DNA of 64,000 nucleotides, taken from contig JAFWEJ010000004.1 in the NCBI GenBank assembly GCA_017512985.1, positions 60,483-124,482 on the forward strand, written 5' to 3'. Below the pieces are notes generated by a model. It was not told where the DNA came from. It saw nothing but the letters and a program-made list of their open reading frames with translations, and did no database searches. This document shows, in pieces, positions 34,434 through 41,739 of the stretch (positions are counted from its first letter, which is position 1; every line of letters begins with the position of its first letter). This DNA comes from Clostridia bacterium (GTDB lineage: Bacteria > Bacillota > Clostridia > Christensenellales > Aristaeellaceae). Made by a program: the position numbers and the translations under genes.

Positions 34434-35483
34434 ATGAAAAACAACTTCAAAAAGAACGGAAAAATGGCCGTACGCTTTGAAACGGCGGAGGAACGGCGGG
34501 AGATCATCCGGATCCTGGAGGAGCAGCGGGGGTTTCAGATTGAGGATAAGCTGAAACAGTCTGATAAGATCCATCCCTATGATACGAGGACCTTCCTGAT
34601 CAATCTGAAATCCAAGACATACACATACTGGATCCAGCCGTTCGTCGGCGCGGCAATGGTGAGCGGCGGTGCCCGGCTGTATTCCGCCCGGGAATTCTTC
34701 CGGATCGCGGAACTGGGGTTTAAGGTGGTGCCGCGCTTCCCGGTATTCCATATCCCGCATGCGGGCGACCGGTTTCCTTTTGAAATGCTGCCTTCCGTCT
34801 GTGTACCGGAAGAGGAGTTCAGGCGGTACCATGCGCAGATGAGCGACACGGACGCCTGGCGGTTTGTGCCCCGGGACTATTACGGCGGGGATATGACGAA
34901 AGGGTTTCAGATCTCACGCCTGATGTGCGACGTGGAACGCTTTATCGGCCCGGAGGAGGAGATGGAACAGTACGGCATGGGGTTCTGTTATGAGAAGGCG
35001 TTTGACGGGAAACAGATCAAGATTGTGACGGATGAGCTGAAGGCGCAGGCCAGGAAGTATTATGATGAGCATCATGCGTGGATGGACCGGCTGTGCGAGC
35101 GGCATCCGCGGATCCTGCTGTTCGATCTGCACAGTTTTTCGGAGGAGACGCTGCCGGAACATATCCGGAAACGGGCGGGGGACCGGATCCCGGACGTGTG
35201 TATCGGGGCTGACTGGAAGTATACACCGTATGAGTTGATCAGCCGGATTGAGCGGCGCCTGGACGAGGTGAACCTGCTGCATATGATCAACACACCCTAC
35301 AGCGGAACGTTCGTGCCCGACGCGGTATTGAAGGGAAACAGCTCCTGCGACCTGGTGTCCGTGATGCTGGAGTTCAACAAAAAACTCTACTGCGATGAAA
35401 ACGGGAAGGCGGATGAGGTGAAGGAGGAACTGATCCGGAAGCTGATGCTGAGGATTGTCTGCGACTGCGTGGATCTGGACTAA
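34434..35483 (+). CDS. N-formylglutamate amidohydrolase family protein (S-box controlled)
   Basis: Protein of 349 residues. The FGase core starts near residue 100: VFHIPHAGDRFP (103-114) with two metal-ligand histidines, a DVERF-type segment, LLFDLHSFSEE and MINTPYSGTFVP. An N-terminal domain of about 95 residues precedes it and is not part of the usual 260-290 aa enzyme. Family members hydrolyse N-formyl amino acids, classically N-formylglutamate in histidine breakdown. No hut genes are near, and control by a SAM-I riboswitch instead suggests a methionine-related substrate such as N-formylmethionine (inference). GGAGAGG lies 6 nt before ATG. Confidence 0.8.
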   Translation: MKNNFKKNGKMAVRFETAEERREIIRILEEQRGFQIEDKLKQSDKIHPYDTRTFLINLKSKTYTYWIQPFVGAAMVSGGARLYSAREFFRIAELGFKVVPRFPVFHIPHAGDRFPFEMLPSVCVPEEEFRRYHAQMSDTDAWRFVPRDYYGGDMTKGFQISRLMCDVERFIGPEEEMEQYGMGFCYEKAFDGKQIKIVTDELKAQARKYYDEHHAWMDRLCERHPRILLFDLHSFSEETLPEHIRKRAGDRIPDVCIGADWKYTPYELISRIERRLDEVNLLHMINTPYSGTFVPDAVLKGNSSCDLVSVMLEFNKKLYCDENGKADEVKEELIRKLMLRIVCDCVDLD

Positions 35484-35591
35484 AGTACGGCTTGAGTTTT
35501 GCCGAACAGATTCAATCCCTGCCCGCTTCAGTTCCGGGAGGCGGCGGGATATGATGATTGTGCCGGGTGAACCGGGAAAGGAGGAAGGATC

Positions 35592-36128
35592 ATGAGTGAA
35601 AAGAAGAAGGGAACCCGTTATCCCTGCCATATCTGGGAAATCGGGGACGCAAAGGAAGCAAAGAAAGCTTTCTGGGTTATGAGGGTCGGTGATCTGGGAT
35701 CGGATGTCATGCTGGAAGACCGAACACTTCTCCATATCAACCATGACGAGCAGGATGATTGCGGAAGCAGGGAGCTGCTGCGCTGCCGGACATGCGGCGG
35801 CCTGATCCTGAGCCAGTCGTCTGTGGATTGCTGGGACCCGACGGATATCGACGCGGACGACGACTACATGCCGGTCAGTTCGCCGGAGGAAGCAGGCCTG
35901 CTGAATATCCTGCTGGACTATGGTGAGTTCTATCAGCTTCCCGGCCGGATATTTCACACGTTCAACAATTCACTGCCTCGCTGGCTGGGAACCGGAGATC
36001 CGGTTCCGAATGATCCGGAGGAACTGAAGGAAAAGATCCGGCAGAAGTATTCCGGGCTGAAGCCGGAGCAGAAGGAAATGCTGGAAAAACTGATCAGCAA
36101 GGCGGGAGAACTAAAAGCGGATGACTGA
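35592..36128 (+). CDS. Hypothetical 178-aa protein
   Basis: The product is soluble and acidic. It has a Cys pair LRCRTCGGLIL near 62-72 with a later Cys (SSVDCWDP), possibly a small metal site. A phenylalanine/tyrosine-rich middle (LDYGEFYQLPGRIFHTFNNS) and a charged C-terminal helix (LKPEQKEMLEKLISKAGELK) follow. No family is recognised. AAAGGAGGAAGG lies 5 nt before ATG, a strong start. Confidence 0.55.
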   Translation: MSEKKKGTRYPCHIWEIGDAKEAKKAFWVMRVGDLGSDVMLEDRTLLHINHDEQDDCGSRELLRCRTCGGLILSQSSVDCWDPTDIDADDDYMPVSSPEEAGLLNILLDYGEFYQLPGRIFHTFNNSLPRWLGTGDPVPNDPEELKEKIRQKYSGLKPEQKEMLEKLISKAGELKADD

Positions 36129-36200
36129 CCGGGGGATGTCGCCGGGCGGGCGACCCGGGACGGCGGATGCGCGGGTAAAATGATCGCGGAGGTGAGGGAG

Positions 36201-36698
36201 ATGGCGGCTGTAAATGAAGGGATCCGTTTCCTGGAGGAATACAGGGCGCATCCGGAGAAGTATTTACCGTTAGCGGATCACGCATGGAAACTATATGAAA
36301 AAGTGGATTACGGCGAGGAATGGTACGATGATCCCTGGTACAACCTGGGATGGGACGCCGGACTGCTGGAAGGAAACCGGCCGTACTTCATGATCCTGTG
36401 GGCAACCTGCGGCATTACGATACTGACCTGTCATGTGTCCGCGGAAGGGATCGGGGAGTACGGGGTGCCGGAACTGCTGGCGATGCAGGAGAAAGCGAAG
36501 CTGGTGAAGGTCCTGGATCCTTCCCGGCCCAGGACGGATATTATGAAGTACCGCGACGGCAGCGGGAATGAGTTCTTCTCCGTCAATATCTGCGTCGGCG
36601 ATGAGAACGAAACATACGCGAGGGGCGGAGCGGCGTATTCCTTTGCGGAACTGAACAGATTCAACAGGAAAAGGGAAAAGGAGGCCGGCCGGAAATGA
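36201..36698 (+). CDS. Hypothetical 165-aa protein, first gene of the XRE-SAH1 operon
   Basis: ATG 36201 is chosen because GGAGG lies 8 nt upstream; ATG 36180 has none. The product is acidic and aromatic-rich (YGEEWYDDPWYNLGWDAGLL), with a central hydrophobic segment (YFMILWATCGITILTCHV). It is not recognised. Its stop overlaps the start of the XRE-SAH gene (ATGA), so the two proteins are translationally coupled. Confidence 0.55.
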   Translation: MAAVNEGIRFLEEYRAHPEKYLPLADHAWKLYEKVDYGEEWYDDPWYNLGWDAGLLEGNRPYFMILWATCGITILTCHVSAEGIGEYGVPELLAMQEKAKLVKVLDPSRPRTDIMKYRDGSGNEFFSVNICVGDENETYARGGAAYSFAELNRFNRKREKEAGRK

Positions 36699-37519
36699 CG
36701 ACGGGCGAGCGGATCACAAAGGCGAGAAAAAACAAGGGCAAGGAACTGACGCAGGAAAAACTGGCGGAGATCCTGGGCGTGTCGCCGCAGGCGGTCAGCA
36801 GCTGGGAGCGGGACGAGTACCTGCCGGACACAAAGAACCTCATCGCGCTGGCGGACGCGCTGGACGTGACGCTGGATTCGCTGCTGCGGGAGGACAACGG
36901 CTGGAAGATGGGGCCGGTCAACTGCGATCCGGACCGGATGTTCACCTTCGTGAAGGGCCGCGCGCAGGTGTACTGCCTGCCGCAGACGCTGAGGATGCTG
37001 GATGTGGCGCGGAGCGTGCACGGGAAAAAGCCAAGGCGGTCGAAGACCGGCTTTGACACCGTATATACGGTGCACCCACTGACGATGGCCTGCCATGCCC
37101 TGGCGATGGGCCTGCATGACGACGATGTGATCGCGGCGGCCCTGGCGCACGACATTGTGGAGGAATCGGATATGCAGGTCAGCGATCTCCCGGCGAATGA
37201 GCGGGTGCGCGAGGCTGTGCGGGTTGTGTCCAAGAACCTGTACGGCCATAGCGGGCCGGATTGGGAGAAGGCGTATTTTGAGGAGATTGAAAAGAACCCG
37301 CTGGCCTGCCTGGTCAAATGCCTGGACCGGGTGAACAACCTGTCCGGGATGGCGGACGCGTTTGACAGGGCCGGAATGGTGAAATATACGAAAGAAACAG
37401 ATCAGTACTATCCGGCACTGCTGAAGGTCGTCAAGAAGGTGCCGGAGTGGAGCAACGCCTGGTGGCTGCTGCGGTACCAGATGACAGCGCTGCTGGAAAC
37501 GTTCAAAAGGATGCTGTAA
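36695..37519 (+). CDS. XRE HTH fused to MESH1-like (p)ppGpp hydrolase domain (paralogue 1)
   Basis: Protein of 274 residues. Residues 1-66 are an XRE HTH (ELTQEKLAEILGVSPQAVSSWERDEYLP). Residues about 95-250 match the HD-type hydrolase of RSH/MESH1 enzymes: YTVHP with H127, AHDIVEES with H152-D153 and E156-E157, and KCLDRVNNL with D211. In MESH1 the fourth motif is HDxxED; here the last acidic residue is Glu, which may weaken catalysis. There is no synthetase or ACT/TGS domain. It may bind DNA and respond to or degrade alarmones. It is coupled to the gene before it and lies 12 nt before a HAD nucleotidase. Confidence 0.78.
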   Translation: MTTGERITKARKNKGKELTQEKLAEILGVSPQAVSSWERDEYLPDTKNLIALADALDVTLDSLLREDNGWKMGPVNCDPDRMFTFVKGRAQVYCLPQTLRMLDVARSVHGKKPRRSKTGFDTVYTVHPLTMACHALAMGLHDDDVIAAALAHDIVEESDMQVSDLPANERVREAVRVVSKNLYGHSGPDWEKAYFEEIEKNPLACLVKCLDRVNNLSGMADAFDRAGMVKYTKETDQYYPALLKVVKKVPEWSNAWWLLRYQMTALLETFKRML

Positions 37520-37531
37520 GGAAGCGCAGGG

Positions 37532-38038
37532 ATGGAGATCAGCAGGATCTACTTCGATATGGACGGTGTGCTGGCGGATTTTAACCGCGGGGTGCGGGAA
37601 CTGTGCGGAATGGAGGCTCCGGATCCGATGAACGCCGCGCCGGAGCAGGACGACCTGATGTGGGAAAGGATCCGGGAGGCAGGACATTTCTATGACCGGC
37701 TGGAGCTGATGCCCGGCGCGAAGGAGATGTTCGGCGCCGTATACGGGAAATACGGCGACCGCTGCGAGATCCTGACCGGAATTCCGAAGGAGAAGCGGAA
37801 GATCCTGACGGCAAAACAGGACAAGATCCACTGGATGAGGCGGGTCCTGTCAGACAGGATCGTGGTCAACGTCTGCCTCCGCGCGGAGAAGATTGAAAAA
37901 TGCACGGGGCCGGACGCGGTCCTGATCGACGACCTGCAGAAGAATATCGACGAGTGGCGGGCGGCCGGCGGCACCGGCATCCTGCATGTGAGCGCGGAGC
38001 AGACGCTGAAGGAGCTGCGGGAACTGGAAGAAAGATAA
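37532..38038 (+). CDS. HAD superfamily 5'(3')-nucleotidase-like protein
   Basis: Protein of 168 residues. Motif I is YFDMDGVLADF at residues 7-17 with both catalytic aspartates, motif II ILTGIPK near 78-84 and motif IV VLIDDLQKNIDEW near 130-142. The short length and the LADFNRGVREL cap match the NT5C/deoxyribonucleotidase family, which removes phosphate from nucleoside monophosphates. It is the third gene of the XRE-SAH1 operon, so it may act on nucleotide products of the same response (inference). Confidence 0.8.
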   Translation: MEISRIYFDMDGVLADFNRGVRELCGMEAPDPMNAAPEQDDLMWERIREAGHFYDRLELMPGAKEMFGAVYGKYGDRCEILTGIPKEKRKILTAKQDKIHWMRRVLSDRIVVNVCLRAEKIEKCTGPDAVLIDDLQKNIDEWRAAGGTGILHVSAEQTLKELRELEER

Positions 38039-38046
38039 CGGAACGG

Positions 38047-38077
38047 AAGCCCTCCCGCGGGAGGGCTTTCTTCTTTT
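38047..38077 (+). terminator. Terminator of the XRE-SAH1 operon
   Basis: AAGCCCTCCC (38047-38056) with GGGAGGGCTT (38059-38068), then TCTTCTTTT. Confidence 0.8.
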
Positions 38078-38141
38078 CAGGGATTATGGTATGATATTTT
38101 CACTCGGAAGGGCGAAAAATGAAGACAAACCGGAGGGAAAT

Positions 38142-38765
38142 ATGGGCAGGAAATGTTTATCAGTTATTCTGGCGGCGATGATGGCCTTTACGGTCTCTGC
38201 CGCGCTGGCGAAGACGGTGGAGCCGGAGGGCAGCTGGAACGCGGTGATGGCCGGACTGACGGTCCACGCGACGGTCGGGGAATACAATGAGATTACGGGC
38301 ACCTTCGAGGTGACGATGTATGAGCCGGACCAGTTCGCGGCGGAAGCGGTCGAAGGCCTGGCCGCGGGGGACGTCCTGCTGGCGGACGGGCGGGCGTATA
38401 CGGTGCGGGAGATGACCAAGGCGCCGGACGGCGAGCCCATGGCCCTGACCGAAGACGGAATGGAGATCATCTTTGACCGGAATGAGGACGGGTATTCCGC
38501 CCGGTATTCCGACGACGACAGGCAGTGCATGCACGCCTTCCGTCAGCTGCACCTCGCGCCTTCGCCGATCATCATCTACGAGGACAACTCCGATCCGGAC
38601 CTGGACGCGGAGGTAAAGGTGACCGAGGGCCTGGAAGAGATCCTGAAGATCAAGGCGGAGAAGGAAGAAAACAGCATCGGGTTTGACTTCTATGCCACCA
38701 CCGTGACTTTAAGCGAGAACCTGCAGATCATGAAGATCCACCAGGACTTTGACGTGGCGCAGTAA
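38142..38765 (+). CDS. Hypothetical secreted protein
   Basis: Protein of 207 residues from ATG 38142, with GGAGGG 5 nt upstream. Signal peptide 1-23 (CLSVILAAMMAFTVSAALA). The mature part is acidic and beta-rich (VHATVGEYNEITGTFEVTMYEP, ADGRAYTVREM), with no cysteines beyond one and no recognised domain. It stands between two terminators, so it is a single-gene unit inside the alarmone-hydrolase region. Confidence 0.6.
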   Translation: MGRKCLSVILAAMMAFTVSAALAKTVEPEGSWNAVMAGLTVHATVGEYNEITGTFEVTMYEPDQFAAEAVEGLAAGDVLLADGRAYTVREMTKAPDGEPMALTEDGMEIIFDRNEDGYSARYSDDDRQCMHAFRQLHLAPSPIIIYEDNSDPDLDAEVKVTEGLEEILKIKAEKEENSIGFDFYATTVTLSENLQIMKIHQDFDVAQ

Positions 38766-38790
38766 AGGAAGATATCTGCCGGGCAGCAGG

Positions 38791-38820
38791 CCGGACCGGA
38801 AACGGTCCGGTTTTTCTTCT
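38791..38820 (+). terminator. Terminator of the secreted protein gene
   Basis: CCGGACCG (38791-38798), GAAA tetraloop, CGGTCCGG (38803-38810), then TTTTTCTTCT. Confidence 0.9.
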
Positions 38821-38967
38821 GGCCTTCCGGAAATGGGGTAAAAATGCCCGCGGCCGGGGCCGATAATGGAGACGCCGGAGGTGAGCCGGACGGAACAGCG
38901 CGGAGGGAAACCGCGTTTATTATGACGGAGACGGCGGAGGACGCCGGAACAAAAGGAGGCACGGAAT

Positions 38968-39144
38968 ATGATCAGCAGGAACGCAAACGCCGCCAAGGCG
39001 CTGAAGTGCATCAACCTGATCCTGGATCCCGCGGAGGACGGGGACATGATCGAGCACCTGTACGAGCAGGGCGACGTATATGAATACCTGAAGGAGCTGA
39101 TCCGGAAGGATATGGCCGCCCCGGCGGATCCGGACCGGGCGTGA
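38968..39144 (+). CDS. Small hypothetical protein (58 aa)
   Basis: ATG 38968 follows AAAGGAGG by 9 nt. The product is helical with a charged surface (AAKALKCINLILDPAEDGDM, YEQGDVYEYLKELIRKDMA). It is not recognised. A GGGGTAAAAATG segment shared with the first WYL promoter lies upstream at 38831-38847. Confidence 0.5.
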   Translation: MISRNANAAKALKCINLILDPAEDGDMIEHLYEQGDVYEYLKELIRKDMAAPADPDRA

Positions 39145-39239
39145 CGTCAGGGACGGTCCACAGGAACGGGAAGAATGATGAGAAAAAGAGATAAGGGAAT
39201 CGGGAGGCTGGTTGACTGCCTCCCGCTTTCAAGTTATAC

Positions 39240-39263
39240 TTGAAATTGGAAATTCAATTTCAA
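39240..39263. promoter_or_regulatory. 9-bp inverted repeat, operator candidate for XRE-SAH2
   Basis: TTGAAATTG (39240-39248), 6 bp, CAATTTCAA (39255-39263), perfect arms, in an AT-rich patch 66 bp before the start at 39329. Size and symmetry fit an XRE-family operator, so autoregulation is possible. Confidence 0.5.
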
Positions 39264-39328
39264 ATTGAATCTGCTGGTTTTTCGGAAACCCTGTGCGGTA
39301 TCCTGTGAACGGAAGGGAGCGATGCGGG

Positions 39329-40165
39329 ATGACGGATGAAATGAGGAAACGGATCGGGAAGCGGATCCGGGCGGCGCGGAAGGAAAAGGACCTGAGCCAG
39401 GAGAAACTGGGCGAGGAACTGGAAGTCTCCTTCCAGGCGGTGAGCAGCTGGGAGACCGGGAAGTTCCTGCCGGACGCGGATCACCTGCCGGCGCTGGCGA
39501 AGGCGCTGGACATTTCCCTGGACGCGCTGTTCGCGGAGAAGGACCGGCAGTGGTCGTTCAGGCGGGTGAACTTTGACGAGGAACATATGTTCACCTATGT
39601 AAAGAGCAAGGCGCAGGAACGGGGATATACCCAGACCCTTGCGGTGATGGACCTGCTGAAGGCGGCGCACGGGGAACAGAAGCGGCGGTCGAAATACGGG
39701 TTTGAATGCTCCTATACCGTGCATCCGCTGACCATGGCCTGCCAGGCGCTGGCGATGGGCCTGAAGAGCGACGACCTGCTGGCGGCGTGCATCGCCCACG
39801 ATATGGTGGAGGACACGGAAATAAAGCTGGACAGCCTGCCGGTGGGCGAGACCGTGCGGGCGGCGGTGCGGCTGGTGTCAAAAAACCTGGTGAAGTGGTC
39901 CCCGGACTGGGAGGAAAAGTATTACGACGCGATCCGGAAGAACCCGCTGGCCTGCATGGTGAAGGTGTTGGACCGGACGCACAACGTGGCCGGGATGGCG
40001 GACGCCTACGGCCGGGAATGGATGGCGCGGTATGTGCGGGAGACGGACAAATACTATCCGGAGCTGCTGGATGTCGTCAAAAAGGTGCCGGAGTGGAACA
40101 ACGCCGCCTGGCTGCTGCGGTACCAGCTGAACACAATGGTTGAGACATTCAAGAGGATCCTGTGA
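39329..40165 (+). CDS. XRE HTH fused to MESH1-like (p)ppGpp hydrolase domain (paralogue 2)
   Basis: Protein of 278 residues. Residues 1-70 are an XRE HTH (DLSQEKLGEELEVSFQAVSSW). The hydrolase domain (about 98-255) keeps every MESH1/RSH metal and catalytic motif: VHP with H132, AHDMVEDT with H157-D158 and E161-D162, and VLDRTHNV with D215; HGEQKRRSKYGFECSYTVHP matches the start of the MESH1 domain. It therefore looks catalytically complete, unlike paralogue 1. ATG 39329 is chosen over 39293 because of the GGAAGGGAG upstream. It heads an operon with a PHP phosphatase (11 nt gap) and an ADP-ribosylglycohydrolase. Confidence 0.8.
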   Translation: MTDEMRKRIGKRIRAARKEKDLSQEKLGEELEVSFQAVSSWETGKFLPDADHLPALAKALDISLDALFAEKDRQWSFRRVNFDEEHMFTYVKSKAQERGYTQTLAVMDLLKAAHGEQKRRSKYGFECSYTVHPLTMACQALAMGLKSDDLLAACIAHDMVEDTEIKLDSLPVGETVRAAVRLVSKNLVKWSPDWEEKYYDAIRKNPLACMVKVLDRTHNVAGMADAYGREWMARYVRETDKYYPELLDVVKKVPEWNNAAWLLRYQLNTMVETFKRIL

Positions 40166-40176
40166 GGAGGAAGCGG

Positions 40177-40932
40177 ATGGAAGAGGCAAAACGGTTTATC
40201 GATACCCACAGCCATATTGTCTTCGGGGCGGACGACGGGGCGCAGAGCCTGCGGGAAGCGATCGATCTGCTGAAACTGGACCGGGAGGAAGGCGCCTTCG
40301 CGGTGTTCGCGACGCCGCACTACGGCCGGGAGAACGGATTCGCGCCGGACGCGGCGATGGTGAGGGAGAAGTTTGAGCTGCTGAAGGAGAAAGCCGCGGA
40401 AGAGGTGCCGGAAATTGAACTGTACCTGGGCACGGAGTGGTACTGCGCGTGGGACCTGGGGGACCGGGTGCACAGGCGGGACGCGTTCCGGATGAACGAT
40501 ACGGACTATATGCTGTGCGAGTTCCTGGAATACGGGCAGGTGTATGAGACATGTGAGAAGATTTCCTGCAACCTGAAGGAGCTGATCCGGCGCGGGTTCC
40601 GCCCGGTGCTGGCGCATCCGGAACGGTACAGGGCGATGCAGGAGGACCGGGAGCGGCTGCGGGAGCTTTGGGAGGCGGGCGTGCTGATGCAGGTGAACGC
40701 GTACGACCTGTACCTGAACTCAAAGGCGCGGACCCGGGAGACGGCGCAGTGGCTGGCGACGGAACGGATGATCTCGTTCATCGGGAGCGACATGCACGGG
40801 ACGCGGCCGGGCAAGAAAGGGCCAAGGCTGAAGGAAGGCCTGCGGTGGCTGTATGAGCATACGGATGAGGAATACGCCGACGCGGTTGCGTTCGGCAACG
40901 CGGAAAAGCTGTTCCTGAAGAAAGGGGAATGA
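40177..40932 (+). CDS. PHP-type tyrosine-protein phosphatase (CpsB/CapC-like)
   Basis: Protein of 251 residues from ATG 40177, with GAGGAGG upstream. Metal-binding PHP motifs: DTHSHIVFGADDGAQ (9-23), ATPHYG near 45-50, LGTEWY near 86-91, VLAHPERY near 147-154 and GSDMHGTRPG near 198-207. CpsB enzymes dephosphorylate tyrosine kinases of capsule synthesis, but no capsule genes are near. In this operon with an alarmone hydrolase and an ARH it may act on another phosphate ester (inference). The stop is 3 nt from the next start. Confidence 0.8.
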   Translation: MEEAKRFIDTHSHIVFGADDGAQSLREAIDLLKLDREEGAFAVFATPHYGRENGFAPDAAMVREKFELLKEKAAEEVPEIELYLGTEWYCAWDLGDRVHRRDAFRMNDTDYMLCEFLEYGQVYETCEKISCNLKELIRRGFRPVLAHPERYRAMQEDRERLRELWEAGVLMQVNAYDLYLNSKARTRETAQWLATERMISFIGSDMHGTRPGKKGPRLKEGLRWLYEHTDEEYADAVAFGNAEKLFLKKGE

Positions 40933-40935
40933 AGC

Positions 40936-41739
40936 ATGTACGGAGCGATACTGGGGGATATCATCGGTTCCCCGTATGAGTTTGAAAAAAGCAAAAAGAC
41001 AAAGGAGTTTCCGCTGTTTATCCCGCGGTCCCGTTATACGGATGACAGCGCCATGACGATTGCCGTGGCTGAAGCGCTGCTGGATACGCAGGGGACGAAG
41101 AACCGGGAGGAACGGAAGGAAGCTGTTACCCGCTCCATGCAGAAATGGGGAAGGCGGTATCCGGACGCCGGTTACGGCGGCAGGTTTTATGACTGGCTGT
41201 ACAGCCGCGATCCCCAGCCGTACAGGAGTTGGGGAAACGGATCCGCCATGCGGGTTTCTTCTGCCGGCTGGCTGTTTGAAACCCTGGAGGAAACGCTGGA
41301 AGCGGCTGAGGACACGGCGGCCGTGACGCATAACCATCCGGAAGGGATCAGGGGGGCGAAAGCGGCTGCGGCTGTAATCTGGGCGGCAAGGAACGGCTGG
41401 TCCAAGGCAAAGATCCGTGAGTATGCGGAGCAGGAGTTTTATCCGCTGAAGCAGACCTGTGATGAGATCCGTCCGGGATATCATTTTGACGTCAGCTGCC
41501 AGGGAACGGTGCCGCAGGCGATTACCGCGTTCCTGGAGGGGAAGGACTTTGAGGACGTGATCCGTACGGCGGTCTCCCTGGGCGGGGACTGCGATACGCT
41601 GACGTGCATTGCCGGCGGCATGGCGGAAGCCATGTACGGTGTTCCGGAGTATCTGAAGGCGGAGTGCCGGAAGCGCCTGGAACCGGATATGCTGGAAGTG
41701 CTGGACCGGTTTGAGAAGGCAAGGATCCGACTGGGCTGA
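40936..41739 (+). CDS. ADP-ribosylglycohydrolase family protein
   Basis: Protein of 267 residues. The binuclear magnesium site is visible: GDIIGSPYEF (7-16), RYTDDSAMT near 33-41 and GGDCDTLTCIAGG near 215-227. This DraG/ARH fold removes ADP-ribose from modified proteins or cleaves O-acetyl-ADP-ribose. It is the last gene of the XRE-SAH2 operon, linking alarmone and ADP-ribose turnover in one transcript. No ADP-ribosyltransferase is visible in the window. Confidence 0.87.
   Translation: MYGAILGDIIGSPYEFEKSKKTKEFPLFIPRSRYTDDSAMTIAVAEALLDTQGTKNREERKEAVTRSMQKWGRRYPDAGYGGRFYDWLYSRDPQPYRSWGNGSAMRVSSAGWLFETLEETLEAAEDTAAVTHNHPEGIRGAKAAAAVIWAARNGWSKAKIREYAEQEFYPLKQTCDEIRPGYHFDVSCQGTVPQAITAFLEGKDFEDVIRTAVSLGGDCDTLTCIAGGMAEAMYGVPEYLKAECRKRLEPDMLEVLDRFEKARIRLG

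Follow-up and report, generated by a model that had tools for sequence, protein, structure and literature searches.

Can a single polypeptide sense an alarmone at a promoter and also remove it? This question is raised by two genes, P0001 and P0002 (Table 1), in a stretch of 64,000 nucleotides (hereafter, the window) from a Clostridia bacterium of the Aristaeellaceae (GCA_017512985.1, contig JAFWEJ010000004.1, C14:60483-124482 in our contig numbering). Both open reading frames (ORFs) were found where a first-pass annotation of the window had placed them, and in both an XRE helix-turn-helix (HTH) domain is joined to an HD hydrolase domain of the RelA/SpoT homologue (RSH) and MESH1 type, as that annotation had proposed; HTH_3, spoT_relA and structure matches and the aligned motifs agree on this point. 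Based on features of the sequence, namely the fusion itself, its catalytic residues, a conserved predicted operator, a shared promoter module and two paired differences in recognition helix and operator, we incline to the view that P0001, P0002 and their relatives are autoregulated XRE trigger enzymes with an RSH-type alarmone hydrolase as the effector domain.

Domain structure and catalytic residues

The HTH part of both proteins matched Pfam HTH_3 (1.4e-14 for P0001 and 2.2e-14 for P0002), and its best match in PDB was P22 C2. The HD part matched the TIGR00691 spoT_relA model (2.1e-7 and 2.9e-9, in the same order) and, in PDB, both entry 3nr1, which we take to be MESH1 (3.2e-4 and 3.2e-6), and the Rel entry 1vj7 (0.023 and 4.6e-6). 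A 25-row family profile matched 3nr1 at 4.2e-12 and a Rel chain at 8.8e-12. Pfam HD and HD_4 stayed under their gathering cut-offs for P0001 and P0002; in the 25-row family alignment A2, they matched 20 and 19 rows, respectively, at E<=0.01, and HTH_3 was found in 24 of the 25 members. The RelA/SpoT models of NCBIfam matched all 25 HD parts, so that the comparison with RSH and MESH1 profiles, suggested earlier as a check, came out in favour of this kinship. An unrelated HD family was considered and rejected: beside the RelA/SpoT models only stray weak matches appeared (sucrose synthase, two; SA0570, one), and among the 18 PDB sequences matching the HD profile at E<=1e-6, several with uninformative names, those whose names tell of a function were RSH or MESH1. 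Profile scans gave no match to a Nudix domain in either protein.

When P0002 was aligned with MESH1 and Rel, residues R119, H132, H157-D158, E161-D162, K212, D215-R216 and N219 fell on RSH motif positions, and we presume for each the catalytic or metal-binding role of that position. Conservation was counted over 37 family HD domains, one of which (locus L051) is incomplete and has no letters at D215, R216 and N219. H132, H157 and D158 were present in 37/37, R119 and E161 in 36/37, and D162 in 35/37 (E in P0001, N in L032); D215, R216 and N219 were present in all 36 readable rows, and K212 in 35 of these. The MESH1-like motifs, described earlier as complete in both proteins, are exact in P0002, while in P0001 the final D of HDxxED is replaced by E. 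L032, the second copy in genome G002, reads HDxxDN, has lost both R119 and K212, and looks like a decayed copy. The near-universal presence of the catalytic residues in the 37 relatives speaks for an active enzyme rather than a pocket that only senses.

Distribution of the family

P0001 and P0002 are 57% identical and were the only family copies found in the source genome (2.63 Mb, 17 contigs), whose assembly is 89.67% complete. At E<=1e-15, the family was present in 20 of 61 genomes searched, all of them within the genus of the window (20/37 there). Searches with the HD profile detected full-length members also in G163, G274, G232, G173, G256, G195 and G092 among 297 genomes of the order and, at E<=1e-14, in G551 among 299 genomes of the phylum (G, C and L denote our genomes, contigs and loci). 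Seven named loci of relatives belong to uncultured Clostridia, Clostridiales or Bacillota, two of them from goat ileum and water deer rumen; an eighth matched the HTH only.

A tree built from 61 HD domains placed all 37 family rows on one side of a single branch (support 100/97), separate from long RSHs and from other small RSH-like proteins; no named small alarmone hydrolase (SAH) was included in this tree except a Butyrivibrio plasmid relative. The survey of genomes for the same fusion, also proposed earlier, detected an HTH in 33 of the 37 members (exceptions L031, L197, L102 and the incomplete L051), and in this sample the HTH-HD fusion is the rule. The plasmid relative, L102 on Butyrivibrio fibrisolvens plasmid pNP243, is a stand-alone protein of 212 aa that groups inside the family with L050, suggesting that the HTH was lost in L102 or gained elsewhere. 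L197 (G633:C7:140729-141304) is a second family copy in G633, and L043 (G288:C42:3848-4450) is a family gene with one TAG in the HD part.

A home on phages or plasmids was also considered and set aside. A scan of viral contigs, which reaches close relatives only, found no phage carrying the fusion; nine phage records, all of Klebsiella phages, matched only residues 132-278 at 27-29% identity, and three plasmid records matched the HD part, the best being the stand-alone Butyrivibrio protein.

Predicted operator and promoter of P0002

The region 39200-39330, named in the first-pass annotation as a possible target of DNA binding, contains a predicted operator pair, O1 (TCAAGTTATACTTGA) and O2, over a sigma-70-like promoter. 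This was the one such promoter found in 38700-39400, compared with a shuffle mean of 0.2. A two-mismatch match like O2 is by itself not above chance in the window, and the evidence for O2 lies in its position and conservation. Over the whole source genome, the exact palindrome occurs three times: once at O1, and twice on another contig (C16:74367 and C16:74392) with a spacing of 25 bp. The location of O1 over the -10 suggests repression; O2 lies a short way upstream of a second -10-like element, and activation is therefore also possible. A 58-codon ORF with a good ribosome site lies at 38968-39144 (+) of the window, between the P0001 operon and the P0002 promoter.

The predicted operator in relatives

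Since clustering of neighbours revealed no conserved operon partner, we searched for a shared operator, and a recurring palindrome was seen in the upstream regions of family genes. Within the genus, the layout is fixed: TTGAC, O1, 10 bp, O2, TCTGCTGG, about 20 bp, a TATGCT-like hexamer and the gene, with TTGAC present in 12 of 21 module sequences. The palindrome was located at most 220 bp from the start in 17 of 33 family genes, two of the 17 having the TCAACC form. With operon-head and one-mismatch sites added, the number of family genes that have such a site or a variant before the gene or the operon rises to 25/33, the additions being L025 (one mismatch) and the operon heads of P0001 (one mismatch), L015, L017, L037, L020, L048 and L071. 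Outside the genus, an exact site precedes the family gene or operon in seven of the eight genomes with the family, G092 being the exception; these genomes contain only 1-4 exact sites each (reversed control, 0-2), and those distant from the family gene, most of them in or near unrelated long ORFs, were counted as chance. Sorted by place, the 21 exact sites in 23 genus genomes fall into three groups: 10 belong to a family gene or its operon, 7 to a module at another locus, and the remaining 4 are chance-like.

The recognition helix reads SFQAVS[ST]WE in most of the genus, SPQAVSKWE in L027 (G024) and STQAVSKWE in L028 (G011), and the palindrome of both L027 and L028 is TCAACC-N3-GGTTGA. G024 and G011 each contain this form once, at the family gene; of 18 further genomes searched, only G008 and G023 have it, with one copy each. 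No exact TCAAGY site was found in G011 (G024 was outside that search). P0001 combines SPQ with SSWE, and the site at its operon head is of the TCAAG type with one mismatch. The joint change of helix and operator in two related cases is suggestive, and not proof, of a pairing between them.

A dispersed repeat of another kind was observed in G040 (many contigs; locus L136), with 56 exact TCAAGY-N3-RCTTGA palindromes against 0 in the reversed control, mostly TCAAG(C/T)AGTACTTGA-like and often 50-250 bp apart.

Promoter modules and candidate regulon

A sequence-only module model, R1, was built from 19 sequences, with the 35473 site of the window and L140 excluded, and was run over 45 genus genomes with stricter filters. 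Matches above about E 1e-3 were treated as chance, except for three designated weak: 35473 in the window (0.0022), G010:C31 (0.004) and G021:C61:164020 (0.037). At E<1e-6, a module was detected in 17 of the 23 genomes that have a family gene and in 1 of the 22 that lack it (p 1.7e-6 by Fisher's test), an association of which autoregulation makes up much and in which training sequences match by construction. The one genome with a module at this threshold and no family gene was G004, where the module precedes a nucleotidase at a contig end. Modules outside the training set were nevertheless found at C16:80896 of the source genome, G030:C85, G633:C69, G633:C77 and G002:C1:2261618, the last about 4 kb downstream of the second family copy of G002.

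The genes behind the modules (Table 1) were read from ORFs called by a simple script, Pfam scans and BLAST links, and the links indicate that gene families recur behind independent modules. In the 424-aa protein behind C16:80896, the N-terminus shares 51% identity with the product of the gene that opens the P0001 operon.

Some of these loci showed further features. The two modules of G633 (L181 and L182) are the same 81-bp variant on two contigs; one precedes a transposase-like ORF, presumably of the IS200 type. Three genes follow the other: one for a 115-aa protein, one for a 92-aa protein related to the C-terminal end of the G002 HD protein, and one for a HIT protein. At L189 (G021:C61:163000-167500), a 405-aa protein stands behind the weak module; its C-terminal part matches CpsB/CapC. 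The N-terminal part shares 32% identity with the Nudix protein of G019 but gave no Pfam Nudix match at 0.01.

Proposed mechanism and alternatives

Going beyond autoregulation, we tentatively propose a self-resetting switch, in which one polypeptide might sense an alarmone at the DNA, shift a dispersed regulon rich in nucleotide enzymes and destroy the ligand. The protein, probably a dimer, would bind O1 and O2 at its own promoter and would recognise the same module at a small, scattered regulon; nucleotide-processing enzymes recur there, together with several families without assigned function. The HD domain would bind a nucleotide phosphorylated at its 2' or 3' position, with (p)ppGpp as the likeliest ligand and (p)ppApp or NADPH as further possibilities; its occupancy would be coupled to DNA binding, O1 over the -10 pointing to repression, and hydrolysis of the ligand would reset the switch. 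If so, the transcription factor itself would set the lifetime of its signal.

A RelA_SpoT synthetase domain is matched once in the source genome, within the long RSH, and (p)ppGpp is thus probably made there. Tde-SAH is reported to be homodimeric, like two RelH proteins (PMC10434055), an arrangement that would suit palindromic half-sites. XccSAH, a Mesh1-L SAH, is reported to hydrolyse pGpp, ppGpp, pppGpp and pppApp, and NADPH far less well (PMC9765508); because it accepts several nucleotides, the ligand is not readable from the fold. The same report describes NahA, a Nudix enzyme, as converting (p)ppGpp to pGpp (PMC9765508), so that enzymes of the regulon might act on the same signal.

Several observations weigh against trigger enzymes with a dispersed regulon. 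Exact palindromes in the 23 genus genomes numbered 21, against 16 in the reversed control, and one-mismatch palindromes in the source genome 15, against 29; raw counts, being scarcely above the reversed control, were discarded as evidence. No site was seen for 8 of the 33 family genes; two of these, L035 and L038, lie behind c4 homologues, and for them the search did not reach the operon head. The predicted operator of the P0001 operon is weak, and P0001 has the motif HDxxEE (D162E). Modules distant from the family gene are weakly associated with it, occurring in 7/23 genomes (G000, G002, G009, G019, G021, G030 and G633) against 1/22 (p 0.047), and those of G009, G019, G021 and G004, together with C16:74330 of the source genome, were in the training set of R1. 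Two genomes that lack a family gene also have weak modules: G018 (3.8e-5), where a Nudix gene follows, and G213 (5.7e-4). The content of the regulon varies from genome to genome.

The HD domain could instead be a sensor only, a nucleotide-binding pocket without meaningful catalysis like the Nudix domain of NrtR. MsNrtR is described as such an auto-repressor, which has lost hydrolase activity and is freed from DNA by ADP-ribose (PMC6800001), and the altered motifs of P0001 and L032 would fit this explanation. We consider it unlikely, since almost all of the 37 relatives, even distant ones, retain the RSH catalytic residues, and L032 resembles a decayed copy and not the rule. It is rather improbable, too, that the HTH mainly sets the level of its own protein, with ligand-blind DNA binding and an enzyme acting on free alarmone or NADPH: the operator evidence is indeed strongest and widest at the family gene itself, and the unlinked modules are less firmly tied to the family, but seven of the 23 genomes that have a family gene carry such modules, and the source genome has two. 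A toxin-antitoxin or defence unit, with the XRE protein as antitoxin or regulator of a toxic neighbour such as c4, appears very improbable. Although c4 precedes the family gene in several genomes and the frames overlap in the window, no other gene cluster, and hence no stable partner gene, was seen in more than 3 of 28 neighbourhoods, the genes being called there by an ad hoc routine that overlooked some of them, including the family gene in 2/28. Moreover, PADLOC matches lie in the HTH end, the RelA_SpoT synthetase model finds nothing in the source genome beyond the long RSH, and in G030 c4 stands behind a module on a different contig from the family gene.

Relation to known systems

As autoregulated trigger enzymes, P0001 and P0002 would combine traits of several known groups. 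The SAHs (MESH1, Mesh1-L such as XccSAH, RelH and Lmo0812) have the HD fold family and motif residues in common with them, and neither have a synthetase domain; the window proteins add the XRE HTH and a conserved C-terminal stretch, and form a separate clade among the HD domains compared. An SAH is described as a small single-domain protein (PMC3153485), whereas both window proteins carry the XRE HTH at the N-terminus. Long RSHs (Rel, SpoT) have a related hydrolase domain (TIGR00691), but P0002 has 278 aa, has no synthetase, TGS or ACT domain and stands apart in the tree. P22 C2-type XRE repressors share HTH_3 and paired palindromic sites over a promoter, the latter predicted here, and differ in the effector part, which in the window proteins is the RSH-type hydrolase domain. 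NrtR would be a functional analogue, in that a nucleotide-hydrolase fold is joined to a DNA-binding domain with autoregulation; its fold and HTH are unrelated, and the catalytic residues are retained here, whereas catalysis is reported as lost in MsNrtR (PMC6800001).

Descriptions of RSH hydrolases treat them as stand-alone or synthetase-linked. In the literature searched, with most subscription papers outside it, we found no RSH hydrolase joined to an HTH or other DNA-binding domain; domain databases may list one. The novelty would thus be that of a known enzyme domain used in a known style of enzyme-regulator, along with the predicted operator. The first-pass annotation put forward the fusion, its assignment to this family and the possibility that an alarmone hydrolase binds DNA, and all three find support at the level of sequence. 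If an RSH hydrolase does act on DNA through the predicted operator and regulon, the removal of alarmone and the control of promoters would be directly linked in uncultured gut Clostridia. The analysis gives exact DNA sites, candidate target genes and a natural operator-variant pair, and places several gene families that Pfam does not match in a possible context.

Neighbouring genes

Table 1. Features of the window, and modules found elsewhere with the genes behind them
Feature	Position	Strand	Description
N-formylglutamate amidohydrolase	34434..35483	+	directly upstream of 35473 module; operon membership doubtful
Weaker promoter module	35473..35556	+	head of P0001 operon; 13.3 bits, E 0.0022 for window; outside model building
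178-aa protein	35592..36128	+	no Pfam match; relatives open two other module-led operons
c4, 172-aa protein	36180..36698	+	no Pfam match; in front of family gene in several relatives
P0001	36695..37519	+	274 aa; paralogue; HTH ~36701-36895 joined to HD ~36983-37351
NT5C-type 5' nucleotidase	37532..38038	+	PF06941 9e-10; P0001 operon
Sigma-70-like promoter TTGACT-17-TATACT	39212..39240	+	-10 within O1
O1, predicted operator	39229..39243	.	palindrome TCAAGY-N3-RCTTGA; kept before relatives' genes
O2, second predicted operator	39254..39268	.	two mismatches; 25 bp downstream of O1
Possible second -10, TATCCT	39299..39304	+	by eye; same place as TATGCT in relatives
P0002	39329..40165	+	278 aa; XRE HTH ~39350-39532, RSH-type HD ~39632-40075, then conserved C-terminal stretch; start taken as ATG 39329, longer GTG reading from 39293 possible
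PHP protein, CpsB/CapC type	40162..40932	+	PF19567 1.5e-52; GTG 40162 or ATG 40180; P0002 operon
ADP-ribosylglycohydrolase	40936..41739	+	PF03747 1.6e-39; P0002 operon
Module, source genome	C16:74330		precedes 158-aa protein without assigned function, then peptide deformylase
Module, source genome	C16:80896		precedes 424-aa protein with Sel1 repeats after N-terminal part
Module, G019			precedes Nudix gene
Module, G002			precedes HD_4 protein of RSH type
Module, G021			precedes 178-aa family, then ADP-ribosylglycohydrolase
Module, G288 (1.7e-6)			precedes PHP, then ADP-ribosylglycohydrolase
Modules, G002, G035, G030			precede c4
Module, G009			precedes 102-aa family; relatives in family operon of G173 and G551, and behind family gene in G274
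Module, G004			precedes NT5C-like nucleotidase (by likeness to window gene)
Module, G633	G633:C77		HIT protein third gene behind it

The start of P0001 overlaps the stop codon of the gene at 36180. Each of the two operons had been thought to contain nucleotide- or ADP-ribose-processing genes; this proved right for the NT5C-type nucleotidase (37532) and the ADP-ribosylglycohydrolase (40936), while the PHP protein at 40162 is a CpsB/CapC match and three further genes, at 35592, 36180 and 38091, matched nothing in Pfam. The 35473 module contains an O1-like site with one mismatch at 35481-35495. A relative of the N-formylglutamate amidohydrolase stands behind the weak G010 module. At L143 (G019:C18), the c4 before the family gene has just 66 codons, and its start and its end resemble those of the full-length c4.

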